A stretch of DNA of 64,000 bases from Fibrobacter sp. (GTDB taxonomy: Bacteria; Fibrobacterota; Fibrobacteria; Fibrobacterales; Fibrobacteraceae). The stretch is taken from the NCBI GenBank assembly GCA_017649565.1, contig JAGCGO010000019.1, positions 62,001 to 126,000 of the forward strand. Direction: 5' to 3'. The notes beneath the pieces are model-generated. The model ran no database searches. It was not told the DNA's origin and saw nothing but the letters and a program-made list of their open reading frames with translations. Positions 1-17,379 of this stretch are shown piece by piece (within the stretch, counting starts at the first letter, position 1; each line of letters starts with the position of its first letter). A program made the translations under genes and the position numbers.

Positions 1-480
1 CACTTCTTTTTCGGCTTGCTTTTTCGCTTCGCCAACGGTTTTACCCTGCTTGACCAGATAGCGAATTCGGTCAAAAGACAGATGCGTCAGAACGTTGATG
101 TTGACATGGTCGAGGTCTTGCAGGTCTACAAGGCTATTCAACGAAATCATTTGTTCAGAACGAAAACCGCTCAACTCGCTGGTAAAGTAACCGTTGGCAT
201 TGAGCCATGCATAGCGATCGTCCAAATCAATGTTTTTCAAGGAGTATTCACCTCGATCGTTATCGATTTCCGTGGAGAAATGGGCCCCCGTTTGCTGCAG
301 CTTTTCATCCATCCCATAAAGGGTCACTTTGGTTCCTTTCGTAAAAGGCCCCTTTTGCGACTTCCCGGAAATAGTTCTTCCAGAGGCTGAACTTCCAGAA
401 CCCGATTCAAACTGGCTGCACGCCGTGAAAAAAGTTCCTGCGACAAGTAACGTAAAAATGGCAAGGTTTATTTTAGACAT
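1..480 (-). CDS. QKGPF-domain lipoprotein, 3' end beyond window
   Basis: Open from ATG at 480 to the window edge, 160 codons visible. The N-terminus is a lipoprotein signal ending at TFFTAC, followed by 'SGKSQKGPFTKGTKV' and the conserved blocks 'GEYSL', 'ANGYF', 'VNINVLTHL' and 'AKKQAEKE' shared with six other proteins in this window. It starts 9 nt after the stop of the preceding lipoprotein gene, with GGAGGA in the gap, so it is the third gene of cassette 1 (regulator, lipoprotein, lipoprotein). Function unknown; probably a surface or periplasmic lipid-anchored protein. The C-terminal module that varies between paralogues is not visible. Confidence 0.85.
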   Translation of the reverse strand, partial: MSKINLAIFTLLVAGTFFTACSQFESGSGSSASGRTISGKSQKGPFTKGTKVTLYGMDEKLQQTGAHFSTEIDNDRGEYSLKNIDLDDRYAWLNANGYFTSELSGFRSEQMISLNSLVDLQDLDHVNINVLTHLSFDRIRYLVKQGKTVGEAKKQAEKEV

Positions 481-489
481 ATATCCTCC

Positions 490-1335
490 TTATTTTCCCA
501 TCCATTTATATATACACCTAAAGAAATCATCATCTCCATGCAGTTCTGCAGAACCTCTCGATTCTGGCAGTTCGCCTGAAGTAGAAAAGACCCGTGCAAG
601 CTCATCAATACCCGCTTGAGCACCACTGCAATCCTCATTGATCTCATAAGCGCAAATAGAACCGCAATATTCACCGAACATACATTCATCGAAATGCGCG
701 CTAATTTGTTCCAGCGCCTTGTCTGTTTCTCCGTCGTTGGCAATATCCAGATTCTCAAAATCATCTGCAAGATTTTCATAGCCAAACTCTTGCATCAATT
801 CTTCACGAGCCTGTTTTTTTGCCTCGGCAAACGATTTCCCGTTTTCAACGAGGTAAAGAGCACGATCGTATTCAAGATGCGTAAGGATATTGATGTTTAT
901 CTGGTCTCGATCTCGGATGTCGGACAGAGCCCTTAAGCTAATCTGGCATACCGTGTTCTCGCCCGTCGTTTCTCTTTTATAATAACCTGTTGCCTTCAGC
1001 CGGACAAACTGGCTTTCCAAATTGATGCCATCTATTTGGAAATCCCCCTTGTCAGTGCGAGTCGTGGCAAAAAATTCTTTGCCCGTGGGTTCAAGGCTAC
1101 CGTCCGCCGACGTTTCCGCGAGGACAATATTTGAGCCCTTTACAAAAGGACCTTTCTGCACCACGCCGGCAATCTGCTTGTTCGTAATTGCGACAACGGC
1201 AGCATCGCCCGAAGCACCGCCAGCGACATCTTTATCATCGGAATCGGAACAGGCAACCACAAAGCCCAGCAAAATGGCAAAAGCCAATGTAAAGGCCAAG
1301 CTTTCTCCTAATACTTTATACACATCCCTTTTCAT
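490..1335 (-). CDS. QKGPF-domain lipoprotein (cassette 1)
   Basis: A 281-residue lipoprotein. ATG at 1335 is chosen over an upstream TTG because AAGGAGGG lies 5 nt before it. Signal peptide ends in a lipobox near 'GFVVAC' (residue ~29), then an acidic linker. The QKGPF domain follows (~55-190) with 'GVVQKGPFVKGS', 'TGKEF', 'DKGDFQIDGINL', 'ATGYY', 'ININILTHLEYDR' and 'AKKQAREE'. The tail is Cys-rich with no FISUMP domain, so this is one of the shorter paralogues. Its start overlaps the end of the TIGR02147 gene by 20 nt, which suggests coupled translation. Function unknown; inferred cell-surface component controlled by the adjacent regulator. Confidence 0.88.
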   Translation of the reverse strand: MKRDVYKVLGESLAFTLAFAILLGFVVACSDSDDKDVAGGASGDAAVVAITNKQIAGVVQKGPFVKGSNIVLAETSADGSLEPTGKEFFATTRTDKGDFQIDGINLESQFVRLKATGYYKRETTGENTVCQISLRALSDIRDRDQININILTHLEYDRALYLVENGKSFAEAKKQAREELMQEFGYENLADDFENLDIANDGETDKALEQISAHFDECMFGEYCGSICAYEINEDCSGAQAGIDELARVFSTSGELPESRGSAELHGDDDFFRCIYKWMGK

Positions 1336-2188
1336 CTTTTCCCTCCTTATCAGATACACGTTTCTTCCCCAACTCTAAGCGTTCGCTCATCGGGAACAGC
1401 TGTACATTCAGGCGATACACCTGTTCCGTTTCGTCGTCTGCAGTAGCAATCGCTACGACACGACGGTAATAATCCTCTGTTTCCTTTTTTATCCGCTCGA
1501 AAGCGCGACGCGTAAGGCCAAGCGTATATCCCGACATGACGCGTTCGGAAATCGGCAAGCCAAGCGACTGGATGGCAAATTCCCCCATCTGGCGCTGCAG
1601 ATCGCGAGCTGCCAACGGCACGGCCTCCACAGGGGCCATTTTAATCGCCTTGTCCGTCTGATGGTAGTTCCCGTTCTTGTCCTTCTTCAAGAGTTTCGCC
1701 TTCACCAAGAAGTCAAGCGTCTCGGAAACTTCCGCTGCCGAAATCTTCGGCTTGCAGGCCTTCGCCATCTCGAGCGGTTTTGCTCCGGGCATGTGCGGGG
1801 CCAATTCGCGAATCACCGAATTTTTCCACGACTTGAAGTAAGCAAATTCTTCATTCCCGAGAATGCGTATCTTGTGGGCATTCGCCATCGCGCACCGTTC
1901 TTCGAATGCGGCTCGTTTTGCCACGTCGCTCTTAGCATGCGCATACGACACCATCAGGATAAAATAGTCGTATTCAAAGCCGACCAACCCCATAGCGCTC
2001 GCCACCGAGCCAGCCGACCCGACACTCAAATTCTTTTTCCCTTCGCAGACATACTTTAGGTAGACATCCGAAGAGAAGCCCGCTTTCTGGGCGAACGCAT
2101 GCCAGGAGAAAGCGGAGCAGCGCTTGCGTTCATCGTAGTAGTCCTGGATGAACTTGCGATAATCTGTATATTCAACGATTTCCTTCAT
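1316..2188 (-). CDS. TIGR02147-type regulator (cassette 1)
   Basis: A 290-residue protein of the Fibrobacter 'second paralogous' family TIGR02147, whose C-terminal part corresponds to DUF4423. It starts MKEIVEYTDYRKFIQDYY. Residues ~23-68 read as an XRE-like helix-turn-helix with second helix 'FSSDVYLKYV'. Residues ~145-185 look like a winged helix ('ISAAEVSETLDFLVKAKLLKK'). The end carries the family motif 'YRLNVQLFPMSE'. No membrane segment or signal is seen, so it is cytoplasmic. It heads cassette 1 and overlaps the lipoprotein start. The role as transcription regulator is inferred from the two DNA-binding-like segments and the operator-like repeats upstream (2218-2318). Confidence 0.88.
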   Translation of the reverse strand: MKEIVEYTDYRKFIQDYYDERKRCSAFSWHAFAQKAGFSSDVYLKYVCEGKKNLSVGSAGSVASAMGLVGFEYDYFILMVSYAHAKSDVAKRAAFEERCAMANAHKIRILGNEEFAYFKSWKNSVIRELAPHMPGAKPLEMAKACKPKISAAEVSETLDFLVKAKLLKKDKNGNYHQTDKAIKMAPVEAVPLAARDLQRQMGEFAIQSLGLPISERVMSGYTLGLTRRAFERIKKETEDYYRRVVAIATADDETEQVYRLNVQLFPMSERLELGKKRVSDKEGKDEKGCV

Positions 2189-2217
2189 GGTAATGAATTT
2201 ATCTTAATTTTTCTAAA

Positions 2218-2318
2218 TTAGAACATAAAATTTGCTTTTTTAGGCAAATTTTACCACTTTTTGGCAAATTACAAAAATTTCGCAAATCTAGAACATGACA
2301 AGCGTGTTCCAGGAACAT
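2218..2318 (-). promoter_or_regulatory. promoter and operator sites of cassette 1
   Basis: GAACAT occurs at 2221-2226, 2291-2296 and 2313-2318, with the inverted half-site GTGTTC at 2304-2309. On the minus strand an extended -10-like TGGTAAAAT lies at 2248-2256, between the first and second sites. The first site is 33 nt from the start codon. Spacings (+70, +83 inverted, +92 and -10 at +27) are identical in front of the cassette 3 regulator, where the half-site is GAATAC. Binding by the TIGR02147 protein is inferred. Confidence 0.6.
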
Positions 2319-2349
2319 GCCCACACCAGGTGACGCAAGAAAGAACGTC

Positions 2350-2387
2350 AAAAAAAAGAGTCCCGACACATAACGCGGGACTCTTTC
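2350..2387 (-). terminator. terminator of the cassette 2 operon
   Basis: An 11-bp perfect stem AAAGAGTCCCG (2355-2365) with CGGGACTCTTT (2376-2386). On the minus strand it is followed by a run of T (plus-strand A at 2350-2357). It lies just downstream of the GLUG gene stop at 2435. Confidence 0.8.
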
Positions 2388-2434
2388 AAATACAAAATAA
2401 CAGACTTACAGCATCAATTGGATTTTTGCTCGTC

Positions 2435-5400
2435 CTACTTTTTGAACATTACGGACTTTTTGACCGCCCTGCCATTGACTTGCAGCACGCCAATATAACG
2501 ACCACGAGCCACATCCCAGGCATTAACCGTTTTGAAGTGCGTTCCGGCAGCACTGCGGCCGAAGTCGGATGTTTTCAGGGTACGCCCCTGCATATCGAAC
2601 AACATAAACCTTACGTTAGCATCGGTCGGTATCTCGAAGCGGATAGCAATATCGCCATTCTGGAACGTAGCGCCGAAAGAACTACCATGCACAAGCACTT
2701 CGTTACGGACTTGCAACGGCGAATCAAACTCTATTTCCGCCTTGGCGGGAGCACTCCAAATAGTATCGGACAAATACAGCATTCCCACCCGGTAACTGAT
2801 TTCGTATGTTCCGGACGCATCCTTGATCTTTTCCAAGGAATCTAGCAAGGATATGCTCGCAGAATCCAGTTTGAGAATCTTTGTTGCACTAGAGTCCATT
2901 ACATAGGCATCATCCAGCAGGCTCTTGCGCACATTCTTTACAAGCGACTTGCCATCTCCAAACGTCAATGACTTGTTTTCTACATAGGGAGCATTCGGCA
3001 CACCGCGGAGCATCGGGTAAGCCTCGCTCTCCTCTATGTTCCACACCGACTTGAAATTGAATTTGGAATATGACTTTTTCAGGAGCATCTTGTCATATGA
3101 AAGGCCCCCTTCCCCTGCCAAGGTGTCAATGCAGTTTTCGGCAAGATAGTAGAATTCATCCGAAGGCTGCGAAATCTTCGGCAATCCGACGCAATAGCGC
3201 ACATTGCTATCAATAACTGCGCCCATAGCGAAACCCCTGACCGTGGTATTGTTGCCATTGGTCGCAATGAAGCCCGAATTTTCCTTGCTTCTGCCTTGCA
3301 GGTAAACATTGCCCACCGAATAGCAGTCTTCGATTGCAAGCTGGTTAATCTCGACAAAGCTCGCCCTTCCATAGACATCGCCCGTAGAATAGGATTGCTT
3401 GATTGTCCCGTAATTGATTCCCGCAAAGCCGGCGGCCCCGTCCACATTTCCCGTCGCAAACGAGCGCTCGATTACGGCCTCGTTCCTGCCGACAAAACCT
3501 CCGGAATAGCCCGCCATGGACTTGACATTAGCCGTAGCGTAGCTATTGGACACCTTCACCGTGTTATACCCGATCAGTCCGCCCACAAAAAGGCTGCCCG
3601 TCAAATCGACAGACGCATGGGCGCTATCTATATCCTTGCCGTATGCGCCACCTATCAGGCCACCCACATAAGCAGCACCCGGAGCGTCAATAGTTCCGGT
3701 CGCCGTAGAACCCGAGACCTTTCCGCTATCAATCGCAACGACGCCACCTACGCCGTCGAACCCGATAGACACATACTGATACAATCCCTCATAATACGAG
3801 ACTTCCCCCGCTCTGCGACCCGCATAATGAGCATCCACCGTGGCAGAACTTCCGCTGACACGTCCGGAACTTCTGTTGAGCCCCGCAATGCCACCCATGG
3901 AACCGCTTTCGGCAACCACATTCGCCGTCACAGTGGCCTTGTCGATAAGTCCGCCATTCACCAGCGCGACACCGCCAAAGCTACTCATGGTTCCACTGAC
4001 ATCCACCTTCGCCTTGGTTATTTTGCCATCGTTGACAAGGGCCATGCCAGCAAAAGAGCTTTCTCCGTTGAGTTCGCCCTTAAACGAACAGTTCTCGATA
4101 GAGCCCCTATTGTAGAAGGCAATCCCGGCGCTGCTATACGTAGAGTCAAAGGTCGCCTCCACATGGACGTTCTTGATGACGCCGTAGTTCGTCCCGACAA
4201 CGCCACCCGCGCTCATGCCCGCGACGGTATAATTCTTGAACGTGAGATTATCTATCACGCCAGACGGCGCCAGCGTATCGATGAATCCAATAGGAGAACC
4301 ATGACCACCATACATCAGAGTGAGATTATCTATGCTGAACCCGTTACCGTAGAACTTTCCGGAGAAGGGCTCCGTATCCTGTTCGCCATAATCCCCGAAC
4401 AGGCGCCCAAAATACTCTATTTCCCCAATAGGCTTGAATCCCTGTGCGGCATTCCATTCAAGGACCTCGGTCGCAGACGCAGAGGCATCGATATCGTTAG
4501 CGAGCTCATACACCGCCGACAACTTGTACTTGCCAAATCCGATAGATTTCAAGTCGCCGTATGTCGTGATAAGGAAAGGATCTTCCTTGGTTCCGGACCC
4601 CGCCATCTGCATCATCGTCGTGTCATAATTCAGGTTGGGGCGGATCTTTTCGTTCCTTGTTTCCGACAGATAGTAGGAATTGTGAATCCAAGCAAAGTAA
4701 GGATATGTCGTATCTGGGGCCATTCTCCAGGTCTTTTCGAAATCCCAGCCCTTGTAGGTTTCCTTCTTGACCATCTGCCGCGAATTGCGAAGTTCGCCAG
4801 CGGCGGTAACGTTCACGAACCAGGGAATGCTGTCGTAATACACCGATGTATACGTGGATTTTGTATCATCGCCAGCAATGCCTCCCCACTTGGAATCGCC
4901 ATCAACGTCGCCTGCGCCAAAGGAATTCTTCACGGTCGCACTATTTGACGCACCGACCAGGCCGCCTACATACTTTGCGCCTATCACATGGCTAATCGAA
5001 TAGCAATCTTCTAAAGTCGCCTGGCCCAAGCTGCCGAACAGACCGCCAACGTATTCGTCACCTGCAACGACATCCCTCGATGCACTCCTCACGATAGAGC
5101 CGCTGGTCTTTTTACCGGCAACGCCGCCCACGTAGTCCGTACCGCGGATATCGTACTTCACGTAGATATTTTCAAGCACAGCTCCGTTGTCGACACCGGC
5201 GAGAGCACCGACATAGTTCTTGCCACGAATGACGCCCTTGGTTTCATTTGAGCTGTACGAATAGTTTTCGCCAAAATGAGAAGCCGTATCAAATACAATC
5301 CCCGTCACCTTGGCACCACTTGCCAACGCACGGAACAGGCCCACGGAATCTTCGTCGGGACGGTTGATATTCAAGCCCGCAATAATCTTGTTGCCGCCGA

Positions 5401-8167
5401 TAAACACGCCGCTGAATTCACCAATCGGTTCGAAGCCCTTGCACAAGCTACTATCGGCATTGCAATTTTCCTTGAACGATCTCGTGGCATCGATATTTCC
5501 CATCAACTTGTAATATGCATCCAGGCCGTATTCGTACTTGCCGACATACTTGAGGTCACCGTAATCGTAAATCTTGTAGGGGTTCGTTTCAGTGCCGGCA
5601 CCGGCAAGCACATTTACCGTACCGTCATCGACAAGCGTTCCCGGCAATATCGGGTCCATGCCCTTGAAGTACGGGTAAGAAACGCCTTCCTGGATTTCCC
5701 AGACCGAATCAAAGTCATAGCCACCGTATGTCGACTGTTTCATCATCTCTGCAGTGGTCTTGCCCTTACGCTCAATTCCTGCAACAGTGCGGTCAAAGAA
5801 ACATGTATTGGTATCTAACATTCTGCTACTACCATTCCCGAGAATCCCTTCGGCAGCGGATTCGGGAGCTTTGAGCATACTTGCCGAATAAATACGAAAC
5901 ATATACGGATTTATATCACTAAAGACATACTGATAATTGTAACCGATAACGCCACCGACATCTTCAATGCCCTTGATTACGTTGACAGAGAATACATCGG
6001 TCATCGCAATGTAGCCATCCATATCACCGATAACACCGCCGACATTCTCCGTACCCTTGACCTTTCCTGTCGTCCCGACAAATTCAACATTGCCAGAAAT
6101 AACGGAACCAATCAAGCCTCCCACAGACTGCTCGCCCTGGACATCTCCGTTCAAAGAAACGACATGGCGCACAGTGACATCGCGTGCTTCGCCAATCAAG
6201 GCGCCCACTACCCAGGAGCCTCTCACCTTCACGTTTTCAAGTTTCAAGTTCTGGATTACACTCGATTCCACATACCCGAACATACCCGTAAAGTCGCGAT
6301 TCGGCTCATCAATCGTCAAATTCTTGATGGTATGGTTCTTGCCGTCAAAATTTCCATAGAATACATTCACGCTATCACCAATCGGTTCAAATTTCGAACC
6401 CGCCGCATCGATATCCTTTGTCAATTCGTAATTGGCCATTAGAGGATAGGCAACATCTTTTCCAATTTTCTGAAATTCGGCAAAAGTCGAAATTTCAATC
6501 TTGTTGGGAACCGCCATATAGCTCGAAGTACCCCAAACTGTATCGCCATCGTTTACAACTCCGATTCGGTAACCGAAATAGAGCGAATCTCTCTTTAACG
6601 TGGTGCTGCCATCAATAGAATCTACATTATCGCTCAATTTCGCCCAGCCAAGCCATTTACCGACAAGTTCGCCATCCACATCAAAAAGCGAGGCAACCTT
6701 CGGAGTCTCTTGCCATTTCGAGGCCGCTGTCGGAAGCGCAATCGGAATCCGGGATTTCTTCGAGAAGGGATTATTTAACAAGTAGGGGAACGATTTCCCT
6801 TCGTCAATGTCCCAATAGCGAATAAATTTTCCCGTTGGACTAGAGCAATAACCTACATACGGATAATACTCGCACGTGTCCGTACCGTCAATGGCATATT
6901 CATTATAACCTAAGGTATCCCAACCTGCAAATGAGGCGAAAGTCATCATCTTTGCAGTCGTAAGGCCCGTGCCACCCGCGCTCGTATCGAGTCCCGAGAT
7001 TTCAGTGTTCCAATAAGAATTCACGATTGAATCCTTGGCATCTCCGACAAGTCCGCCAACGGAACTATCCCCCTGGACAACATTTGCCGCATAGGAATAA
7101 TACATCGTTCCTCTACCCACAACACCACCAACATACTCTTCGCCACGCACTGTTCCCATCGCAAAAGAGAAGAACACCCCGCCTTCTCCGGCAATGCCGC
7201 CAACATAACGCCTGCCCTCAACAGTACCAAGCGCATAAGACTCGCTTACCGAGCCGCCTTCACCGACAATTCCACCGACATCATAATCAAAGTACCAAAA
7301 ACCAAAATGCATCAGGTCCATTGTAGACAAGCAGTGTACAATTCCACCCTCGGCATATCCTGCAATACCACCGACCTCGTCAACACCATCCTGTCCAGGA
7401 AGTATCGTACCACTTGAACGGGATTGTAAAACATCACCCGTCAAATATCCGACAATACCGCCCGCATCCTTTTTCATAATAATGATATTCACATCGGCTT
7501 CCGCACGTAAAACATTCATGTCCGTTTGACCGACAATGCCGCCAACTCTTTGCGAGCCCTTGATATCGCCCTGAAAAGAAACATCTTCGAGAACGGCTTG
7601 TTCGTTGTAGCGTTTTGTACCTTCTCCAACAATACCGCCGACATAATTCTGTCCTTGGACAAAGCCGTTCGTCACATGCACGTTCTTGATGGAGCCTATC
7701 TGCTTGGCAGCAACGCTCGCCACGAAGTTCGCTTCTGTCACTCGGCCTGTTACATGGATATGATCAAAATTCAAGTTGGTAACGGAACCGCCCAAGTAAG
7801 CGATAAAGGCCACATCCCTTTCGCAGGGGAGCCAAATGGTCAAATTGCTAATGGTATGATTTTGTCCATTGATATTGCCCCAGAATATAATACTGTCCGC
7901 AGCGTCCTTATTTTTTCCGATAGGAATGAAGCCGTTGCAACCATCCTCGTTGCACATCTCGTTCTTAGAGTCCGAAGCATCAATGTCCTTCGTCAAGACG
8001 TAATTTGAAGAATAAAGGTAAGCCCCTTTACCGATGGCCTTCAAGTCTTCGTAGTCTTCAATCTGGAAAGGCTTATTGGCAGAGCCGTCGCCCTTCATGG
8101 TTCCGTTTGCGGCAAACGCTTGTGCCGCAAACAGCATTATCAGTGTCAAAAAATGCAGAGCCTTCAT
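2435..8167 (-). CDS. giant GLUG-repeat secreted surface protein
   Basis: A 1910-residue secreted protein. ATG at 8167 has GGAGG just upstream; a longer TTG/GTG start overlaps the previous gene and would spoil the signal peptide 'MKALHFLTLIMLFAAQAFA'. Four modules each begin with a 'G.G....PF.I..Y.DLK.IG' block and 'Y.L..DIDAS' (near residues 20, 555, 855 and 1190). They are followed by 'F.G..H.I.NLTI' and many GLUG-type 'VGG.VG......S.A.G.V.G' repeats, as in bacterial adhesins predicted to form beta-helices. The last ~100 residues ('FMLFDMQGRTLK ... GRYIGVLQVNG') resemble a type IX-type sorting domain, also seen on the GH9. It lies 14 nt after the FISUMP lipoprotein gene, so it belongs to the cassette 2 operon. 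Probable adhesin; ligand unknown. Confidence 0.9.
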   Translation of the reverse strand: MKALHFLTLIMLFAAQAFAANGTMKGDGSANKPFQIEDYEDLKAIGKGAYLYSSNYVLTKDIDASDSKNEMCNEDGCNGFIPIGKNKDAADSIIFWGNINGQNHTISNLTIWLPCERDVAFIAYLGGSVTNLNFDHIHVTGRVTEANFVASVAAKQIGSIKNVHVTNGFVQGQNYVGGIVGEGTKRYNEQAVLEDVSFQGDIKGSQRVGGIVGQTDMNVLRAEADVNIIIMKKDAGGIVGYLTGDVLQSRSSGTILPGQDGVDEVGGIAGYAEGGIVHCLSTMDLMHFGFWYFDYDVGGIVGEGGSVSESYALGTVEGRRYVGGIAGEGGVFFSFAMGTVRGEEYVGGVVGRGTMYYSYAANVVQGDSSVGGLVGDAKDSIVNSYWNTEISGLDTSAGGTGLTTAKMMTFASFAGWDTLGYNEYAIDGTDTCEYYPYVGYCSSPTGKFIRYWDIDEGKSFPYLLNNPFSKKSRIPIALPTAASKWQETPKVASLFDVDGELVGKWLGWAKLSDNVDSIDGSTTLKRDSLYFGYRIGVVNDGDTVWGTSSYMAVPNKIEISTFAEFQKIGKDVAYPLMANYELTKDIDAAGSKFEPIGDSVNVFYGNFDGKNHTIKNLTIDEPNRDFTGMFGYVESSVIQNLKLENVKVRGSWVVGALIGEARDVTVRHVVSLNGDVQGEQSVGGLIGSVISGNVEFVGTTGKVKGTENVGGVIGDMDGYIAMTDVFSVNVIKGIEDVGGVIGYNYQYVFSDINPYMFRIYSASMLKAPESAAEGILGNGSSRMLDTNTCFFDRTVAGIERKGKTTAEMMKQSTYGGYDFDSVWEIQEGVSYPYFKGMDPILPGTLVDDGTVNVLAGAGTETNPYKIYDYGDLKYVGKYEYGLDAYYKLMGNIDATRSFKENCNADSSLCKGFEPIGEFSGVFIGGNKIIAGLNINRPDEDSVGLFRALASGAKVTGIVFDTASHFGENYSYSSNETKGVIRGKNYVGALAGVDNGAVLENIYVKYDIRGTDYVGGVAGKKTSGSIVRSASRDVVAGDEYVGGLFGSLGQATLEDCYSISHVIGAKYVGGLVGASNSATVKNSFGAGDVDGDSKWGGIAGDDTKSTYTSVYYDSIPWFVNVTAAGELRNSRQMVKKETYKGWDFEKTWRMAPDTTYPYFAWIHNSYYLSETRNEKIRPNLNYDTTMMQMAGSGTKEDPFLITTYGDLKSIGFGKYKLSAVYELANDIDASASATEVLEWNAAQGFKPIGEIEYFGRLFGDYGEQDTEPFSGKFYGNGFSIDNLTLMYGGHGSPIGFIDTLAPSGVIDNLTFKNYTVAGMSAGGVVGTNYGVIKNVHVEATFDSTYSSAGIAFYNRGSIENCSFKGELNGESSFAGMALVNDGKITKAKVDVSGTMSSFGGVALVNGGLIDKATVTANVVAESGSMGGIAGLNRSSGRVSGSSATVDAHYAGRRAGEVSYYEGLYQYVSIGFDGVGGVVAIDSGKVSGSTATGTIDAPGAAYVGGLIGGAYGKDIDSAHASVDLTGSLFVGGLIGYNTVKVSNSYATANVKSMAGYSGGFVGRNEAVIERSFATGNVDGAAGFAGINYGTIKQSYSTGDVYGRASFVEINQLAIEDCYSVGNVYLQGRSKENSGFIATNGNNTTVRGFAMGAVIDSNVRYCVGLPKISQPSDEFYYLAENCIDTLAGEGGLSYDKMLLKKSYSKFNFKSVWNIEESEAYPMLRGVPNAPYVENKSLTFGDGKSLVKNVRKSLLDDAYVMDSSATKILKLDSASISLLDSLEKIKDASGTYEISYRVGMLYLSDTIWSAPAKAEIEFDSPLQVRNEVLVHGSSFGATFQNGDIAIRFEIPTDANVRFMLFDMQGRTLKTSDFGRSAAGTHFKTVNAWDVARGRYIGVLQVNGRAVKKSVMFKK

Positions 8168-8181: not shown

Positions 8182-9750
8182 TTAATCCTTGACACAACGG
8201 ATAGAGAATCCGCTATCCTTGAACGACATAGACCTATTGTCCATTTGTCCAAACAAGTTTATGAAATAACAGATTCGCCCGTCATTCACATCAGCCAATT
8301 GATCGGTAAGAGCAAAGAAATCGGCACTGCGCGTATCCGCGTACGTAAAGGGATCTCCGCGGTACACTTCCCCGGCGGGGAAGGCAGAAAAACCGTAAGC
8401 GTCCGTACCGTAATCCCAGAGCCACCCCACCTTCGACATGAGATTGGCACTCCCGCCGGCCGTAGCAATCAGGACGTTCCATTCCGTCGTATCGGGCAAG
8501 TGCCAGCCATTCGGGCAAAGCCCCTGTTCCCGGGTAAACTCGCAATACTTCTCGAAACCGCAGGTCCGCGGTTTTTCCGCATCGTTTGCCAACTTGACCG
8601 AATCGATAGCCGCGGCCCACGTGTAGAAGCGTCCCGCGATTGCACAGTATTCGGGGTTGTCTTCGTAGCACCAGCTGCGTCCCAAAAGGCTTGGAGTGCT
8701 CACGCTGTCCGCATAGTTCAAGTTCTGCGCCATCCATACCTGTTCACCAATCGTTACGACCTTATAAACCTGGCCGTCGCGTTCATCGACAATGGAATCG
8801 TACACAATATCGGGATTCAAGTAGGCTTCCTTAGGCCGGCTCCAGTCTATGTCAAATTCGGTTCTCTCATCCTCTTCGCTTTCCTGCTTTTCTTCGAATT
8901 TCTCCATGTAATTTTCAAATTCCGGCAACTCGTCCACATATCCCCAGCTTTCGATGTTCTTGCGAATCGTATCGATCAGACCTTTTTCCTTGGCGGAAGC
9001 TGCCCAATCCGCAAGCTCGGCCTTTTCGCCGTCTCCCAGGGAACCCTTTTCCGCGAATGTCGAGCTGATCTTGTCCAGACGTTCGGCAACATCTGCAGCC
9101 TCTATAGTCTCGGCCGAATCATCCGGCACCTGCATCAGTACGCTCACAGCCAGGAGAGCCGCATTCCCGTCGCCCTGTTCAAAGATGTTCAAGTTTTCAA
9201 ATTCGCCAACTTCGGACACCACATCAAGCGCGGCAAGCACTTCTTCTTCCGCCTGCTTCTTTGCATCTGCAAAGTCCATGTTCTTTTTAGCGACAAGATT
9301 TCTTATGCGGTCGGATTCCAGATGCGTGAACGCATTGACATTTACCGTTTCACGCTCTTTCAAATTCGTCAGCACTCGCAGCGTCATCTTTTCCGAAGTC
9401 TTTTTACCGGAAACTTCGTTGAAGTAGTAACCCTTCGCCTCGATTTCGGCACACGGCGAAGAGAGCGTAACATCGCCAACGACATAGTCGCCCTTGTCGC
9501 TCTGGACCTCGCCCTCGAAAACCTCGTCAGACAATTCGAGTGTTTTACAGTCCATTCCGCGCACGGTCACGTGGGAGCCCTTGGCGAACGGGCCCTTCTG
9601 CAAGACACCAGCCACTTTCTTGTCCTGTACGGCATAGAGGCCCTCGCTTTCTTCGCAAGTCCCTGCGGTATCCTCTTTTTCGGAACAGGCACAAAGCAGA
9701 GCGAACCCTACAAGCGTCCATGCAAACAGAAATTTTCTAATCATCCTCAT
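8182..9750 (-). CDS. QKGPF lipoprotein with FISUMP domain (cassette 2)
   Basis: A 522-residue lipoprotein with lipobox 'FALLCAC' (residue ~22). The QKGPF domain (~45-175) has 'GVLQKGPFAKGS', 'DKGDY', 'AKGYYFNE' and 'VNVNAFTHLESDR'. It is followed by 'GDGNAALLAVSVLMQ' and 'KAELADWA' (~205-260). The C-terminus (~330-522) is a Fibrobacter major paralogous domain, TIGR02145: 'DGQVYKVVTIGEQVWMAQNLNY', 'GRFYTWAAA', 'CPNGWHLPDTTEWN' and the final 'GFSIRCVKD'. Its start overlaps the regulator gene by 14 nt and has AAGGA upstream; ATG at 9744 is an alternative. Probably an exported surface lipoprotein; the FISUMP domain has no established activity that I know of. Confidence 0.92.
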   Translation of the reverse strand: MRMIRKFLFAWTLVGFALLCACSEKEDTAGTCEESEGLYAVQDKKVAGVLQKGPFAKGSHVTVRGMDCKTLELSDEVFEGEVQSDKGDYVVGDVTLSSPCAEIEAKGYYFNEVSGKKTSEKMTLRVLTNLKERETVNVNAFTHLESDRIRNLVAKKNMDFADAKKQAEEEVLAALDVVSEVGEFENLNIFEQGDGNAALLAVSVLMQVPDDSAETIEAADVAERLDKISSTFAEKGSLGDGEKAELADWAASAKEKGLIDTIRKNIESWGYVDELPEFENYMEKFEEKQESEEDERTEFDIDWSRPKEAYLNPDIVYDSIVDERDGQVYKVVTIGEQVWMAQNLNYADSVSTPSLLGRSWCYEDNPEYCAIAGRFYTWAAAIDSVKLANDAEKPRTCGFEKYCEFTREQGLCPNGWHLPDTTEWNVLIATAGGSANLMSKVGWLWDYGTDAYGFSAFPAGEVYRGDPFTYADTRSADFFALTDQLADVNDGRICYFINLFGQMDNRSMSFKDSGFSIRCVKD

Positions 9751-10615
9751 TGCCTTCCTTGCACAGTGGCCCTGTGTCTTTTTTTAAATTATCCTTTTTC
9801 AAATTTTCCGTCAACGGAAAAAGCTGTATATTTAGCCTACAAATTTTATCCGGGTTTTTATCGGCCGAGACAAGCGACACTATACGCTTGCGGCACTCCG
9901 CCAATTCATCCAGGACCTTCGGGTAACTTTCGGTAGTCACGCCCATGGTCAACCCACTGAAATGCCGTTCCGATACCGGGAGTGTATCAAATGCGGCAAG
10001 CGCAAACTCGCCCATCTGCCGCAATAGCGAATGTACGGCCAATGTCACCACCTTCAACTGTCCTGTCGAAATGGAGCGGTTCGTCTGGCGATAATTATCA
10101 TTCGCATCCTTTTCCAAGAAACCGGCACTTAACAAAAAATGCAGACTCGCGCTCACGTCGGATGCCGATATAGGGAGCCGGCACGCCTTCGCCATTTCGT
10201 GCGGTTTCGCCCCGGGCATCGTCACCGCAAGTTCTCGCACCACCGAATGTTTCCAAGTCTCGAAAAAGGTGTACATGTCGCTTCCGAGGATCTTTACATT
10301 GCGTGCGGAGCTCAAAGCCTGCATTTCTTTGAAGCATTCCTTTTTCAACTGATCCGTCTTGGCATTCTCGTACCGGACCATCAAGACGAAATAATCGTAC
10401 TCAAAATCGACGAGTCCCATGGCGGCGGCCGTCTTTTTCGCCCCCTCTTCCACAAGTCGAGTCTTGCCGTCGCAAACCAGTTTCAAATACGAACCCGACG
10501 CGAACCCGGCAACTTTTGCAAACTCGCGCCACGTAAAAGCCGAGGTGCGCTTGCGTTCGCGGTAGTAATCCAATACGTACTCGCGATAGTCCTTGTATTC
10601 GACGACCGATTTCAT
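9737..10615 (-). CDS. TIGR02147-type regulator (cassette 2)
   Basis: A 292-residue TIGR02147 protein. ATG at 10615 (MKSVVEYKDYREYVLDYY) is chosen over a TTG at 10654 by alignment with the cassette 4 paralogue. The HTH-like segment has second helix 'FASGSYLKLVCDGKTR', identical to cassette 4. A winged-helix-like block follows near 145-190 ('ISASDVSASLHFLLSAGFLEK'), and the end has 'CRLNIQLFPLTENL'. It overlaps the FISUMP lipoprotein gene by 14 nt and heads a three-gene operon ending in the GLUG protein. Upstream lies a cluster of ATAAAACAA-type repeats. Predicted cytoplasmic autoregulator of this operon, perhaps also of the divergent lipoprotein gene at 10916 (inference). Confidence 0.88.
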   Translation of the reverse strand: MKSVVEYKDYREYVLDYYRERKRTSAFTWREFAKVAGFASGSYLKLVCDGKTRLVEEGAKKTAAAMGLVDFEYDYFVLMVRYENAKTDQLKKECFKEMQALSSARNVKILGSDMYTFFETWKHSVVRELAVTMPGAKPHEMAKACRLPISASDVSASLHFLLSAGFLEKDANDNYRQTNRSISTGQLKVVTLAVHSLLRQMGEFALAAFDTLPVSERHFSGLTMGVTTESYPKVLDELAECRKRIVSLVSADKNPDKICRLNIQLFPLTENLKKDNLKKDTGPLCKEGNEDD

Positions 10616-10660
10616 TTTCACATAAAAAATACCTAATTTTTCCGCATTTCTCAATGTTTT

Positions 10661-10788
10661 ATAAAAAACAAAAATTGCATATATCTCGCGATTTTTGAAT
10701 AATTTTAGGCGTTAATCCAAAAATTGGCATTTTTCATAAAACAAAAAAGGGGGTTATATAAAACAAAATCGCAATTATATAAAACAAA
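10661..10788. promoter_or_regulatory. divergent operator region, ATAAAACAA repeats
   Basis: Half-sites on the plus strand are at 10735-10745 (CATAAAACAAA), 10757-10767 and 10778-10788 (both TATAAAACAAA), spaced 22 and 21 bp. A weaker copy lies at 10661-10673 (C at 10669). A minus-strand -10-like TAAAAT lies at 10702-10707. The region separates the cassette 2 regulator (minus) from the lipoprotein gene at 10916 (plus), so it may serve both. The same 21-bp-spaced pair occurs at 61908-61939. Confidence 0.55.
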
Positions 10789-10915
10789 TGGCCCCAAAAA
10801 GCGCCTCTTTTCCAAAAAAAGTTTTCAAAAGAGGAAAAAACGGCCTAAAAAACGTTTTCAAAATAACTTATCTTCTTTTCAGCAATCCAAATACACCAAA
10901 AAAAAGGAACCCTAT

Positions 10916-11596: not shown

Positions 11597-11629
11597 GACT
11601 CCTCTCAGCAAAAAACGAGTTATAAAGAC

Positions 11630-13600
11630 CTACTCGGCTTTAGCGTACTTGTCACAGTCACCATTATAGCCGCCCATAGACACAATATTGAACCGCAGGC
11701 TGTCTATGAGCGGCATCTCGAATGAAAGTCCTCTCACGCTCTTTACCCCCGTTTCACTGTCGAATTCGGACAAGTCCTCGCGCAAAACATATTCCGACAG
11801 GACAAATGACGACCACGGAATTCTCTCCACTCGAACCGTATCAGAGGCAGGCAAAACGGTTTTCACTGAATTGCCGGAATCAACATAGACAGAAATCGTT
11901 TGCGTGGAAGAATACGCGATACAGAGCCCGCCCAGTTCAGAGAAATCATAGGGTCGCGATCGAGGACTGTTCAAATAAACACCATAAGTTAAACCAGAAT
12001 CGCAGACGCCAGACTCACTAACGCAAGTCACCCGAGCGCAAACGCCCTTACACAATTCAACAACCTTCTTGGCTCTGTTTTCGTCATCTACGTCCATTTC
12101 AGACGGTAAGGACAAAGCGAAATCTTCATCAACATCTATATACCACTCAAAAGGTTCGGTTGAAAACGGGAAATACACCTCATCCGAATCCCTCGTTCCA
12201 AACCAAGTCCATCGGGAAAGATCTGCAACAAATTTCCCTTCCGTGCACGTATACTCCATTCCGGTATTTACACCAACTACAGTTCCCCCCTCGACACATT
12301 CTAGGCCCTGGACATCGACATCGGCAACGGTAACATCGCTCAACGTCCACTCTCCTTCCTTGCAAAGATAGCCATCTATAAATTTTTCGGGCATTGCCGA
12401 TGTACATGCACCATATTTCCATTCTATTTCTTTTATGTTGCGCCATGAACCACCATCATAAACAACAAATTGTCCTTGACCTGCATGACGAACTTCACCC
12501 TCTGTTCCATCCGTTAGGCAATATCGAAAACACGGGATAAAATTGGGTGTTGTAGCATCCGCGCCAAACCCAGAAGTGTCCGACAACAGTTCCCACCTTC
12601 CAGACAGGCAGATATACCGCACACTCATATCCCTATAATAATTTATGCTGAGCTCGTTACTATCCGCCGCAATTTCGCCTTCGCGCGATTCCGAACAAGT
12701 CCCGATCCCGTAGTTTTCATACCAGAAATTACGGACATACTTCGCGAAATCGGGAACCGAGCCGAACCCCCATCCATTGATATTTTCCGAAATTCTCAGC
12801 AGAGTCCCGTCAAAATCGGCTTTATTCGCCCAGTCGGCCATTTCCGTCTTCGTTTTCGCGTCATCCCACGAGCCCTTCGAGGCCAGCGCAATCCTGAAAT
12901 TGCCCATACGCTCGGTAAGTCCGGCAACAGATAGATTCCCCTGCATCAGGACGCTTATAGCAAGTAGGGCAGCATTACCGTCTCCCAACTCAAAAATGTT
13001 CAGGTCTTCCGAATTTTCGATATCGCCATCTATGCCGAACACCGACAAGATTTCGCGTTCGGCCTTGGCCTTGGCATCCGCGACGGATTCTCCCTTTTCG
13101 AGAACCAGGTGCATCACGCGTTCGTATTCCAGGTGTGTAAGCAAGTTGATATTCACCTTGTTCCTGTCGCTGAGATCCGTCAACGCGGTGAGAGTCACTG
13201 TACCCGAGGAATTTTCTCCGCTGATTTCGTTACGATAATAACCGGTCGCATCGAGCAAGGCATATTGCGAAGCAAGATTGATGCCTTTGATATCGAAATC
13301 ACCCTTGTCGCTCTTGATTTCTCCTCTAAAGTTCTTGCCCGTCTGATTCAGCGTGAGGCTATCCAGTTCATGCACCATCACCACGGAACCCGTGACAAAC
13401 GGACCCTTCTGCGAAACGCCCGCCACTTCCCAGTCCTTGACTGCATAGATACCGGCATCTTCCGAGGAACCCCCGTCGGTAATCTCAATATGGTCACTCG
13501 AATCCGAACTGGAGCATGCAACCATGAGCACCGTCAAAATACCCAAAACCAAAGTTGTAATCCAATGCACCATTGCCATTTTATGTACACTGTCTTTCAT
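11630..13600 (-). CDS. QKGPF lipoprotein with jelly-roll-like C-terminus (cassette 3)
   Basis: A 656-residue lipoprotein. ATG at 13600 has AAGGAGGA 5-12 nt upstream and lies one base after the regulator stop. Lipobox 'VLMVAC' near residue 29. QKGPF domain (~55-190): 'GVSQKGPFVTGS', 'SDKGDFDIKGINL', 'ATGYYRNE', 'VNINLLTHLEYER'. The second block follows: 'GDGNAALLAISVLMQ', 'TEMADWAN'. Short Cys-containing repeats then appear ('RYICLSGRWELL', 'YLCKEGEWTL', 'YTCTEGKFVADL'). The last ~190 residues ('SRWTWFGTRDSDEVYFPF ... SFEMPLIDSLRFNI') resemble a carbohydrate-binding-type beta-sandwich. That assignment is a guess from the pattern. No FISUMP domain. Confidence 0.88.
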   Translation of the reverse strand: MKDSVHKMAMVHWITTLVLGILTVLMVACSSSDSSDHIEITDGGSSEDAGIYAVKDWEVAGVSQKGPFVTGSVVMVHELDSLTLNQTGKNFRGEIKSDKGDFDIKGINLASQYALLDATGYYRNEISGENSSGTVTLTALTDLSDRNKVNINLLTHLEYERVMHLVLEKGESVADAKAKAEREILSVFGIDGDIENSEDLNIFELGDGNAALLAISVLMQGNLSVAGLTERMGNFRIALASKGSWDDAKTKTEMADWANKADFDGTLLRISENINGWGFGSVPDFAKYVRNFWYENYGIGTCSESREGEIAADSNELSINYYRDMSVRYICLSGRWELLSDTSGFGADATTPNFIPCFRYCLTDGTEGEVRHAGQGQFVVYDGGSWRNIKEIEWKYGACTSAMPEKFIDGYLCKEGEWTLSDVTVADVDVQGLECVEGGTVVGVNTGMEYTCTEGKFVADLSRWTWFGTRDSDEVYFPFSTEPFEWYIDVDEDFALSLPSEMDVDDENRAKKVVELCKGVCARVTCVSESGVCDSGLTYGVYLNSPRSRPYDFSELGGLCIAYSSTQTISVYVDSGNSVKTVLPASDTVRVERIPWSSFVLSEYVLREDLSEFDSETGVKSVRGLSFEMPLIDSLRFNIVSMGGYNGDCDKYAKAE

Positions 13601-13601
13601 T

Positions 13602-14447
13602 TTATTCCTCCTTAACGGATCCAAATTCATTTTTTAAATTCTCGCTCATTGGGAACAATTGCAAGTTCAATCGGTATACCCGCTCCGCATCATCAATTTC
13701 TGTCGCAATCGCCACAACGCGGCGGCGACATTCTGCCAATTCCTTTCTAATGCGTTCATAAGCATCGCGCGTAAGCCCCAAAATAAGGCCTGACATATCA
13801 CGTTCCGAAAGAGGCAAGTCAACAGCCTTTACCGCAAGCTCGCCCATCTGCCGTTGCATTTCGCGAGCCGCTACAGGAACCGCATCCACGGAACCCATCG
13901 ACACGGACTTGTCCGTCTGATGATAGTTACCGTTCTTATCCCTCTTCAAGAGGTTCATCTTCACCAAAAAATCGAGCGTTTCGGAAACTTCCGCCGCAGT
14001 AATGTGCTGTTTGCAGGCGCGAGCCATCTCAAGCGGCTTCGCGCCGGGCATGTGCGGAGCCAATTCGCGCAGCAGCGGGTTCTTCCACGACTTGAAATAG
14101 TCAAATTCCTCGCTCCCGAGCACGTGCACCTTGTGTGCATGCGCCAAGGCACAGCGTTCTTCGAATGCGGCTCGTCTCGCCTTATCGCTCTTGGCGTGCG
14201 CATACGAGACCATCAACACAAAGTAAGTATTCTCGAAACCCGCAAGCCCCATGGCATTCGCTACAGAGCCCGCAACGTTGACACTCAAGTTCTTTTTCCC
14301 CTCGCAGACATATTTCAGATAAACTGGCGACGAGAACCCGGCATCATGCGCAAACTGCCGCCAGGTAAAAGCCGAGCAGCGCTTGCGTTCATCGTAGTAG
14401 TCCTGAATGAACTTGCGGTAGTCCGTATATTCGATGATGTCCTTCAT
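13602..14447 (-). CDS. TIGR02147-type regulator (cassette 3)
   Basis: A 281-residue TIGR02147 protein, a close paralogue of the cassette 1 regulator. ATG at 14447 (MKDIIEYTDYRKFIQDYY) is preferred to a GTG two codons upstream. The HTH-like segment reads 'FSSPVYLKYVCEGKKN' where cassette 1 has 'FSSDVYLKYV': one residue differs in the putative recognition helix. Winged-helix-like block 'ITAAEVSETLDFLVKMNLLKR' near 145-180; end motif 'YRLNLQLFPMSENL'. The stop is one base before the lipoprotein ATG, and that gene's ribosome site lies inside the regulator's last codons, so translation is likely coupled. Probable operators lie at 14478-14577. Confidence 0.88.
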   Translation of the reverse strand: MKDIIEYTDYRKFIQDYYDERKRCSAFTWRQFAHDAGFSSPVYLKYVCEGKKNLSVNVAGSVANAMGLAGFENTYFVLMVSYAHAKSDKARRAAFEERCALAHAHKVHVLGSEEFDYFKSWKNPLLRELAPHMPGAKPLEMARACKQHITAAEVSETLDFLVKMNLLKRDKNGNYHQTDKSVSMGSVDAVPVAAREMQRQMGELAVKAVDLPLSERDMSGLILGLTRDAYERIRKELAECRRRVVAIATEIDDAERVYRLNLQLFPMSENLKNEFGSVKEE

Positions 14448-14477
14448 ACGCACAAATATATATCCTCAAGACAAAAA

Positions 14478-14577
14478 TAGAATACAAATTTCGCTTTTTC
14501 GCACAGATTTTACACATTCGCGTATTATACAAAAAATTTCAGCAATTCAGAATACAAAACCGGTATTCCAAGAATAC
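14478..14577 (-). promoter_or_regulatory. promoter and operator sites of cassette 3
   Basis: GAATAC occurs at 14480-14485, 14550-14555 and 14572-14577, with the exact inverted half-site GTATTC at 14563-14568. A minus-strand TGTAAAAT (-10-like) covers 14507-14514. Offsets (70, 83 inverted, 92 and -10 at 27) and the 33-nt distance to the start codon match the cassette 1 region base for base, while the half-site differs (GAACAT there). Confidence 0.62.
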
Positions 14578-14578
14578 A

Positions 14579-14601
14579 GAAAAGGCCCCGCAAGCGGGGC
14601 C
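14579..14601 (-). terminator. terminator of cassette 4
   Basis: Perfect stem GGCCCCG (14584-14590) with CGGGGCC (14595-14601) and a CAAG loop. On the minus strand a short T run follows. It lies 25 nt downstream of the lipoprotein stop at 14626. Confidence 0.78.
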
Positions 14602-14625
14602 TGAATGAGAGAGATACAAATTATC

Positions 14626-16485
14626 TTAGTTTTTCACGCAGCGGACTCGAGCACTTTCTCTCGGTTCTTCAAGCGCAGAGTCAAATCCCAAAAAGATTCT
14701 AAAAGTTTTGTTATCAAATTCCAAGTTGCCCAAATAACCACTACGATTAAATCCACCCCAAAAACCTTCATTATAAGCAAACGGAGCATTATCATAATAC
14801 ATCTTCAATGTATCTACTTGCGCCTCGATATTTACGTGGAATGATTGATGTGTGTACGTGTGATAATAGGCCATACCGTCTTCCATCGGCAAAAGATTGA
14901 AATCAAGCCTGTCGTAGTGCACACCAGCACCATCCCTCCAGTTTTCATTAAGCAAATTAAGAACACCACCGGCATAAGCGACCAAGGCATTCCAGTCCTT
15001 AACACTAGAGATATGCCAACCATCCGGACAGATTCCTTGATGCACCACGTCAATCACACCATCTTCAACAGGCTCTGTCATGTATTTTGGGTCTATCTGC
15101 ATGGCAGCCGTCCAACTATAAATTCCTTTTTGTTTAACCTTTAACATCATACGGGTTTCACTTACTTCGTAGTTGAGGTCTTCCGCCATCCATTCATATC
15201 TTTTCCCGCCAATCTCAAAACTTACCGTTTTATACACATTACCATCTCGCGGATCTATCATAGTGCCCGATTCATGGTCAATCTTCATTTTGAGAGAATC
15301 TACGTATCCTGTCCTCTTTACTTCCCAACTAGAACCATTGCAAAGAAGATAACCGGACTGCAGAACTATCATTTGATTGGAGGAATTATCGTAAGCAATA
15401 ATAGGTTTATGGAATTCCCTGGACTCGCCCCAAAGATCTTCAGTACAAAGTTCAACTCCCATATAGTTCAAAAATAAACGCTTACTAAATTCGTATTTCT
15501 TTTTCATAACCATAAGTTCCTCGTACGAGCCCGGATCTTTGCGATCTTTTTTTCTCATGTCGGATTCATCTATATCTTCCATATGACTGTACTCACCAGT
15601 AATGCGATAAGCCTGAGTCGCAAGGTCTTGCATAATGGAATCGCTGAGAACACCGTCATCCGCAAAGTCATTGGCAAATGCATCAATATAAGCCTGTAAC
15701 TTGGAACAATCTATATTTTCCAAGAGTATCTCAGGCCCCCATTCATCGCTTGTGCCATCCCAAAATTCCCACGAGCTACTTTCATCCAGCAGAAGACTGA
15801 TGTTGAAAAGTGTTCTATCGGCATCAGAAGTATTAAATATGTTCAAATCTTCAGAAGAACTCACATCGACATCCACCCCGAACGCATTCATAACTTCTGT
15901 GGAAGCCTGTCTTTTCGCTTCAACAAAGTTTTTGCCGGATTTGATCAAGTTCAACACACGTTTGTATTCAAAATGAGTCAAGAGATTGATGTTTACTGTT
16001 TCGCGCTTTCGCAGGTCAGAGACGGCGTCCAGACGCATGGGGCATTCAGAGAAACGTTTTTCTTCTTCAGATCTATTATCATCATCGAAATACACTTCCC
16101 CATCGTGTATATAATAGCCCTCTGCAGAAAGTAGTACGTACTGGCTTACTAGATCAAGACTATCAAAATTGAAATCACCCTTATCATTAATGGTCACCGT
16201 AGTGTATTCTCTGCCGGTGGGTTCAAGGTTGCCCTCTGCCGACGTTTCACGAAGAACCACTTCGGAACCCTTTACGAGCGGGCCTTTCTGCGCCGCGCCC
16301 GAAATCTTTTTGTTCGCAATCGCGACGATGCCTTCGGCCTCTTCGCTGGTTCCGGCAGACCCGCCGATCTCGGAACAACCACTGAACATCGCTCCCATCG
16401 CAAGAGCCAATGCAATTCCAGTTTTCGCCATCATCTTTTTTTCCGGATGGATGGCATTTCTTGTCTCATCATAATTCTCAATCAT
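14626..16485 (-). CDS. QKGPF lipoprotein with FISUMP domain (cassette 4)
   Basis: A 619-residue lipoprotein. ATG at 16485 has AAGGAGA upstream and overlaps the regulator stop as ATGA. Lipobox 'AMFSGC' (residue ~37) follows an unusually long n-region; MM at residues 18-19 is the alternative start but lacks a ribosome site. QKGPF domain (~55-210): 'GAAQKGPLVKGS' (Leu replaces the usual Phe), 'NDKGDFNFDSLDL', 'AEGYYI', 'VNINLLTHFEYKR'. The C-terminus (~400-619) is a divergent FISUMP/TIGR02145 domain: 'DPRDGNVYKTVSF', 'WMAEDLNYE', 'GIYSWTAAM', 'CPDGWHISSVKDWNALV', ending 'ARVRCVKN'. Surface lipoprotein of unknown function. Confidence 0.9.
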   Translation of the reverse strand: MIENYDETRNAIHPEKKMMAKTGIALALAMGAMFSGCSEIGGSAGTSEEAEGIVAIANKKISGAAQKGPLVKGSEVVLRETSAEGNLEPTGREYTTVTINDKGDFNFDSLDLVSQYVLLSAEGYYIHDGEVYFDDDNRSEEEKRFSECPMRLDAVSDLRKRETVNINLLTHFEYKRVLNLIKSGKNFVEAKRQASTEVMNAFGVDVDVSSSEDLNIFNTSDADRTLFNISLLLDESSSWEFWDGTSDEWGPEILLENIDCSKLQAYIDAFANDFADDGVLSDSIMQDLATQAYRITGEYSHMEDIDESDMRKKDRKDPGSYEELMVMKKKYEFSKRLFLNYMGVELCTEDLWGESREFHKPIIAYDNSSNQMIVLQSGYLLCNGSSWEVKRTGYVDSLKMKIDHESGTMIDPRDGNVYKTVSFEIGGKRYEWMAEDLNYEVSETRMMLKVKQKGIYSWTAAMQIDPKYMTEPVEDGVIDVVHQGICPDGWHISSVKDWNALVAYAGGVLNLLNENWRDGAGVHYDRLDFNLLPMEDGMAYYHTYTHQSFHVNIEAQVDTLKMYYDNAPFAYNEGFWGGFNRSGYLGNLEFDNKTFRIFLGFDSALEEPRESARVRCVKN

Positions 16486-17330
16486 CTTTTCTCTCCTTTC
16501 CCATTATTAAATTTCAAGTTCTCGGTAAGTGGGAAAAGCTGCATATTCAAACGGCAAACTTTCTCCACGTCTTTGTCAGCAGAAACAATCGACACAATTC
16601 GTTTGCGGCACTCCGTGAGTTCTTCGACGACCTTTTCGTAGCTTGCGGCGGTCATTCCCATAAAGATGCCGCTAAAATGGCGTTCCGAAATCGGCAACTT
16701 GTCAAAAGCCTCGAGCGCAAACTCGCCCATCTGGCGTAACAGCGAATGCACCGCCACCGAAACGGCCTTTAAGCGCCCCGTAGTCAGCGAACGGTTCGTC
16801 TGATGGTAGGCGCCCTTTACATCCATCGTCAGGAAACCTGAATTCACAAGGAACTTGAGGCTGCTGCTGACATCGGCGGCCGAAATCGGGAGACGGCAAA
16901 CCTTCGCAATCTCGTGCGGTTTCGCCCCCGGCATTGCCACAGCCAATTCGCGGACAACGGAGTGCTTCCACGTCTCGTAAAAAGTGTACAGTTCGCTCCC
17001 GAGGATCTTCACATTGTGCGCCGAGCTCAGCGCCTCCATTTCCTCGAAGCACTTTTTCTTTTCACGATCCGTCTTCGCACTTTCGTAGCGGACCATCAAA
17101 ACAAAGTAGTCGTACTCAAAGCCCAACAACCCCATGGCAACAGCGGTTTTCTTCGCACCTTCTTCACGAAGGCGCGTCTTGCCATCACAAACAAGCTTCA
17201 AGTACGACCCCGACGCGAATCCGGCAATCTTTGCAAACTCGCGCCATGTAAACGCCGAAGTGCGTTTGCGCTCGCGGTAGTAGTCAAGTACGTACTCGCG
17301 ATAATCTTTATATTCAATAACCGATTTCAT
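16482..17330 (-). CDS. TIGR02147-type regulator (cassette 4)
   Basis: A 282-residue TIGR02147 protein, close paralogue of the cassette 2 regulator (MKSVIEYKDYREYVLDYYRERKR). A preceding in-frame ATG at 17333 would add one Met. The putative recognition segment 'FASGSYLKLVCDGKTR' is identical to cassette 2. Winged-helix-like 'ISAADVSSSLKFLVNSGFL' near 145-185; end motif 'CRLNMQLFPLTENL'. The stop overlaps the lipoprotein start by 4 nt (ATGA). ATAAAACAAG-type repeats lie at 17380-17478, and a palindrome array starts at 17529, further upstream. Confidence 0.88.
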   Translation of the reverse strand: MKSVIEYKDYREYVLDYYRERKRTSAFTWREFAKIAGFASGSYLKLVCDGKTRLREEGAKKTAVAMGLLGFEYDYFVLMVRYESAKTDREKKKCFEEMEALSSAHNVKILGSELYTFYETWKHSVVRELAVAMPGAKPHEIAKVCRLPISAADVSSSLKFLVNSGFLTMDVKGAYHQTNRSLTTGRLKAVSVAVHSLLRQMGEFALEAFDKLPISERHFSGIFMGMTAASYEKVVEELTECRKRIVSIVSADKDVEKVCRLNMQLFPLTENLKFNNGKGEKR

Positions 17331-17379
17331 CATGACAGTAAATTAGGTTATTCTCATCCAAGGTGCAACGAAATTCAAA

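Follow-up and report, generated by a model that had tools for sequence, protein, structure and literature searches.

We analyzed a 64,000-nt stretch of DNA from a 3.45 Mb Fibrobacter genome (C30:62001-126000). By "the window" we mean this whole stretch. The window contains four cassettes, each with a gene for a TIGR02147-type regulator followed by a gene for a lipoprotein. The original prediction had placed the four pairs at these positions, and the coordinates of the open reading frames (ORFs) confirm this. All four regulators belong to TIGR02147 by its curated cut-off. The genes, in window coordinates, are:

1..480, minus strand: second QKGPF lipoprotein of cassette 1; leaves the window leftwards, with FISUMP further on
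490..1335, minus strand: lipoprotein partner 1, with lipobox, tag and QKGPF domain (ORF coordinates, fold model)
1316..2188, minus strand: regulator 1, TIGR02147 (331 bits) and DUF4423, helix-turn-helix (HTH) type FSWH
2435..8167, minus strand: GLUG-repeat protein of cassette 2 (PF07581), 14 nt past the lipoprotein stop
8182..9750, minus strand: lipoprotein partner 2, QKGPF and FISUMP (TIGR02145, 163 bits)
9737..10615, minus strand: regulator 2, TIGR02147 (284 bits), HTH type FTWR...ASGSYLK
11630..13600, minus strand: lipoprotein partner 3, QKGPF; C-terminal part without a Pfam domain
13602..14447, minus strand: regulator 3, TIGR02147 (320 bits), HTH type FTWR; structure model
14626..16485, minus strand: lipoprotein partner 4, QKGPL and divergent FISUMP (TIGR02145, 74 bits)
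16482..17330, minus strand: regulator 4, TIGR02147 (277 bits), HTH type FTWR...ASGSYLK

The stop codon of the regulator and the ATG of the lipoprotein give a 20-nt overlap in cassette 1 (1316/1335), a 14-nt overlap in cassette 2 (9737/9750), and an ATGA in cassette 4 (16482/16485). In cassette 3, the second ATG of the lipoprotein leaves a 1-nt gap (13602/13600), and the first ATG (13630) would give a 29-nt overlap. These are the junctions that had been claimed. The additional genes reported behind two of the copies, for the GLUG protein (2435-8167) and the second QKGPF lipoprotein (from 480 leftwards), are also present. The lipoproteins were said to vary at their C-termini, and they do, but the tally of FISUMP domains was too low. 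Partners 2 and 4 both score above the TIGR02145 cut-off of 41.65 bits and partners 1 and 3 do not, so FISUMP is found in two of the four partners instead of one.

Two other features lie nearby. A second GLUG-type repeat protein is encoded upstream of cassette 4 (17870-21343, minus strand), and the C-terminal ends of both GLUG proteins resemble a type IX secretion tail. Also, a divergent putative lipoprotein gene (10724-11596, plus strand; ..MFFVGCAPKTS..) shares its intergenic region with regulator 2.

The four regulators match TIGR02147 over its full length (277-331 bits, positions 1-271 of 272; curated cut-off 50) and also match PF14394, or DUF4423 (82-99 bits; gathering score 30). In a structural model of regulator 3 (pLDDT 79, with the C-terminal part poorly modelled), residues 6-89 are similar to lambda-repressor-like HTH domains (HigA, RghR, DdrO, and the 434 repressor; Z about 6-8), and residues 108-183 are similar to winged helices of the YodB, MntR, and MarR types (Z about 6-7). 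We predict that the regulator has two DNA-binding domains; Z scores of at most 8 are modest, and both halves are consistent with this prediction. Sequence matches to repressors were weak, as were the Foldseek E-values (best 0.037), and a sequence search for a solved homolog found none. Neither Pfam nor fold comparison recognised a ligand domain. The regulators end in a conserved QLN.QLFP stretch. (We also considered a toxin-antitoxin system of the HigBA type, but the partners are lipoproteins and there is no HigB-type toxin. A defence or toxin-antitoxin function has no support from PADLOC, which matched only one regulator, to HTH_IX at E 0.008.)

TIGR02147 genes and their lipoprotein partners

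The genome contains 36 TIGR02147 genes. In a genome-wide search, their preference for a neighbour was essentially absolute: all 35 with readable downstream DNA have a lipoprotein gene next, on the same strand, at a distance of -82 to +13 nt (depending on the choice of start codon or ORF). A lack of such a preference had been named beforehand as grounds to reject the original idea, and this check did not reject it. Lipoproteins were called by pattern (a signal peptide with a lipobox Cys), and six of the 35 were called partly by eye. A stricter lipobox test passed 9 of the 35 partners and was replaced by one that passed 29. With this automatic test, 29/35 partners were lipoproteins, as compared to 26/321 co-directional downstream genes from the same genome (Fisher p = 1e-21). 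If the gap is limited to 15 nt or less, the baseline is 8/148.

The pairing extends across the phylum. In other Fibrobacter genomes, an ORF with a lipobox is next in 111/111 cases (distinct regulators from 77 loci with readable downstream DNA). In other families of Fibrobacterota, a lipoprotein is next in 29/29 readable loci, of which some were judged by eye and three are apparent only in the right frame of GC-rich DNA. TIGR02147 is present in 156 of 167 Fibrobacterota genomes, the highest count being 85 matches in a single genome. Outside the phylum, a single match on a Bdellovibrio plasmid, a DUF4423-like gene (L271 2986-4538), has a 4-nt ATGA overlap with the gene for a signal-peptide protein that has no lipobox. 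From this one case, the coupling of regulator and exported protein may predate Fibrobacterota.

The partner had been described as a QKGPF lipoprotein, and this does not hold genome-wide. Although every readable regulator has a lipoprotein next, only about 12 of the 35 partners have a QKGPF-type domain and 11 have FISUMP, or about a third each. The unit is a regulator with a lipoprotein in general, not with a QKGPF lipoprotein. Pfam also finds CarboxypepD_reg-type sandwiches in up to 9 partners and, in one case each, pectate lyase, laminin-G, CBM, and Ig-like domains. Nor are these domains confined to cassettes. FISUMP has 139 matches in the genome, most of them outside cassettes, and is absent from 24 partners. 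The QKGPF domain occurs in about 20 proteins: the 12 or so direct partners, two second lipoproteins of cassettes, and six elsewhere. (Two QKGPF proteins of the window lie away from TIGR02147 genes, at 31623-32039 and 33834-34352 on the minus strand, or C30:93623-94039 and C30:95834-96352.)

According to one published report (PMC4704652), FISUMP is a putative cellulose-binding protein, perhaps analogous to cohesin, and has many copies in the phylum. Envelope proteomics of F. succinogenes found many regulated lipoproteins, CarboxypepD_reg types among them (PMC6851124). In a model of partner 1 (pLDDT 84), the QKGPF domain is a beta-sandwich followed by helices. Its best fold match is a PgcA domain (E 2.5e-4), followed by carbohydrate-binding and transthyretin-like folds with weak E-values. 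The predicted fold would fit a binding module, and it proves no ligand.

The partners also have an 11-residue tag in common, roughly GG[STA][TS]E[EDT]xN; in most of them it begins 5-12 residues past the lipidated cysteine. A rigid regular expression missed half of the partners, and we used a trained profile instead. (The profile was trained on a sample of the phylum that included other genera and some Fibrobacter genes.) In the window's genome, 24/35 partners score at least 0, as compared to 1/26 other lipoproteins (p = 4e-7), so the tag is largely absent from non-partners. About a third of the partners fall short on this profile. The tag may serve in sorting or in feedback signalling.

Half-sites upstream of the regulators

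The DNA upstream of the regulators contains an inverted repeat whose right arm is repeated 70 nt downstream. The candidate operators in the window are:

2221..2319, minus strand: operator 1, with CATGTTC (2313-2319), CATGTTC (2291-2297), and TATGTTC (2221-2227); spacings 22 and 70 nt
10663..10766, minus strand: operator 2, with TTGTTTTAT (10758-10766), TTGTTTTAT (10736-10744), and TTGTTTTTT (10663-10671); spacings 22 and 73 nt
14480..14578, minus strand: operator 3, with TGTATTC (14572-14578), TGTATTC (14550-14556), and TGTATTC (14480-14486); spacings 22 and 70 nt
17377..17477, minus strand: operator 4, with TTGTTCTAT (17469-17477), TTGTTTTAT (17447-17455), and TTGTTTTTT (17377-17385); spacings 22 and 70 nt

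An inverted copy lies between the first two half-sites in operator 1 (GGAACAC) and operator 3 (GGAATAC). For operators 2 and 4 we also examined orthologs, and the clade of regulators 2 and 4 mostly has spacings of 21-22 and 70-73 nt. Relative to the ATG, the predicted half-sites of the four regulators are at about -151/-131, about -129/-109, and -56/-39.

The same geometry recurs in 96 non-redundant Fibrobacter regions. An inverted arm with a repeat of the right arm shows a single peak at 68-72 nt (29, versus 0-5 in other 5-nt windows), and direct copies spaced by 19-23 and then 68-72 nt occur in 47/96 regions, versus 5-24 at other spacings. (Scans for exact 5-mer inverted repeats were swamped by A/T runs; we applied GC and spacing filters.) The 70-nt spacing was not seen in a set of 47 regions from the top-scoring Fibrobacter genes and distant families, so we limit our claims about operators to part of Fibrobacter. 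Within the window's own genome, the architecture is clear for only part of the 36 genes.

The proximal half-site overlaps the -35 region or lies shortly before a TTGAC hexamer. In 19 of the 36 genes, the start of a -10-like hexamer is 12-17 nt ahead of the ATG and a Shine-Dalgarno sequence is missing; with the hexamer so close to the start in about half of the promoters, these messages look leaderless. Six other genes have a Shine-Dalgarno sequence. (At another locus, L038 (C97:8689-28138), four cassettes in tandem have Shine-Dalgarno leaders in place of leaderless starts.) In one clade, a box, GGTAAAATTTG, is conserved between the distal and proximal sites (as in 14447-14578). This box may represent a second promoter, similar to the TAnnTTTG type of Bacteroidetes.

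The sequence of the half-sites is specific to the paralog and tracks one residue of the HTH. ATGTTC operators go with FSW[HQ] regulators, and GTATTC or GTGTTC operators with FTWR regulators. We searched 80 genomes for composite patterns, blind to the positions of genes; some of these species had also been used to derive the patterns. GAATAC..GTATTC..GTATTC had 14 matches, of which 12 lie before TIGR02147 genes of the FTWR type, all with Arg after the HTH Trp. GAACAT..ATGTTC..ATGTTC had 24 matches, of which 18 lie before TIGR02147 genes of the FSW[HQ] type, all with His or Gln at this position. We reject the other six as operators; they are coincidental, within leucine-rich-repeat coding sequence. 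In the 80 genomes, neither a reversed-pattern control nor a mixed composite had any matches.

One of the two remaining GTATTC composites is a chance match. The other is perfect and lies directly before an orphan lipoprotein gene whose product has the tag MGGDTEEYSEVV, with no TIGR02147 gene between them (L207, 1500-1700). This implicates the lipoprotein as the target. Either the regulator was lost or the lipoprotein is regulated in trans.

A caveat is that the correlation between operator and HTH rests on two related clades, and so on few independent changes. Given this and the shared source of the patterns, the search is strong evidence for the identity of the operators but says less about how many changes occurred independently. 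From this covariation, we predict that the regulators bind their operators in a sequence-specific manner.

A proposed switch for envelope lipoproteins

Computation gave us the pairing, the operator geometry (in part of Fibrobacter), the paralog-specific half-sites, their correlation with the HTH, and the tag motif. The best explanation is probably that each cassette is a self-regulated expression switch for one cell-envelope lipoprotein, with a private operator. The first gene would encode a two-domain DNA-binding protein (a lambda-repressor/XRE-like HTH and a winged helix). This protein would bind spaced half-sites within its own promoter. The first two are direct repeats with a spacing of about 22 nt, and one clade has an inverted copy in the interval; the third follows after about 70 nt and is located at the -35 element or slightly upstream. 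By binding there it would control its own transcript. The distal and proximal sites may be brought together by looping, and repression seems slightly more plausible than activation. The output would be the lipoprotein, which is probably translationally coupled to the regulator through its overlapping or abutting start. The lipoprotein may be exposed at the surface, with a role in adhesion or substrate binding. Since the operator half-sites have diverged in step with the HTH residues, we propose that the paralogs are insulated from each other. Many copies, including all four in the window, are preceded by an "address" sequence of their own, and many surface proteins might therefore be switched independently. 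The original idea of self-regulated surface-protein switches is thus favoured, as judged from sequence, by the covarying, paralog-specific operators and by the phylum-wide pairing, once the restriction to QKGPF is dropped.

A simpler account is that these are plain autorepressed adhesin operons with no sensing, in which the regulator merely buffers the level of the lipoprotein. The position of the operators, over or beside the -35 element, and the lack of a recognised ligand domain would fit. But taken alone this would not explain why one genome has 36 copies whose operators differ. It seems more likely that the cassettes are used conditionally, and we consider plain buffering somewhat unlikely.

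Alternatively, the loop could be closed: the lipoprotein would also be a sensor, and its tag or its failed export would feed back on the cytoplasmic regulator, as in anti-sigma/sensor pairs. Outside partners the tag is largely lacking, and both the tag and the pairing are conserved across the phylum. Also, where regulators are 80-90% identical, no part of the lipoprotein follows the regulator as closely as the first 35 residues past the cysteine: the lipoproteins' identity is 33% in the signal peptide, 65% from +1 to +35, 52% from +36 to +200, and 33% in the rest, where values near 30% are the background for such alignments. However, a sorting signal would be conserved too. Furthermore, the tag and the regulator are on opposite sides of the inner membrane, and the cassette encodes no transmembrane relay. 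We view such feedback as improbable. We see a similarly small chance that the cassettes form a phylum-wide system of one-regulator/one-lipoprotein signalling, in which the tag lets the lipoprotein report export, arrival at the surface, or ligand binding to the regulator. If so, each cell would have dozens of orthogonal surface-sensing switches, insulated by co-evolving operators.

Two other explanations fare far worse. A pheromone system as in Enterococcus (PrgX and the signal peptides of lipoproteins) would fit the XRE-type regulator next to lipoprotein genes, but the signal peptide is the least conserved part of the partners (30-33% identity even where regulators are 60-90% identical, and 32-33% at 70-90%) and the cassettes showed no gene for an importer, which makes a pheromone very doubtful. 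Finally, tandem duplicates do exist (C97, C36, and the window), but it is scarcely credible that the genes merely hitch-hike in duplicated blocks with no regulatory link, given that regulators with a similarity of about 80% can be paired with unrelated lipoproteins (as in C27/C33), that the pairing nevertheless persists across the phylum (29/29 in distant families), and that the operators are matched.

Fibrobacter is one of the main fibre digesters in the rumen, and little is known of how its many surface proteins are regulated. A self-regulated switch would give a testable function to one of its largest paralogous families, with operators predicted for individual genes. The family is also a natural set of DNA-binding proteins that are encoded beside their own targets, with diverging and possibly orthogonal specificities. 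A role of the tag in sorting or signalling is directly testable.

The regulators are members of TIGR02147 (Fsuc_second) and PF14394 (DUF4423), which are family names without a function. A literature search, mostly outside subscription journals, found no paper that mentions TIGR02147 or describes the paired system; DUF4423 was mentioned once, in a table entry for Bdellovibrio. The partner gene, the tag, and the operators are described here. FISUMP (TIGR02145, Fib_succ_major) is shared with 11 of the 35 partners, but most of its matches in the genome are outside cassettes. In Bacteroidetes, switches that combine ECF sigma and anti-sigma factors with surface lipoproteins (SusCD) come as many paralogs, each of which has one surface protein under its control. 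The cassettes are also a large paralogous set, but they have no sigma factor, anti-sigma factor, or TonB receptor. With autoregulated lambda-type or XRE repressors, including HigA, the cassette regulators have in common the N-terminal HTH fold and an operator upstream of their own gene, at the -35 element. Unlike those repressors, they have no toxin, add a predicted winged helix, have three spaced half-sites over about 100 nt, and number in the dozens per genome, where their operators differ.
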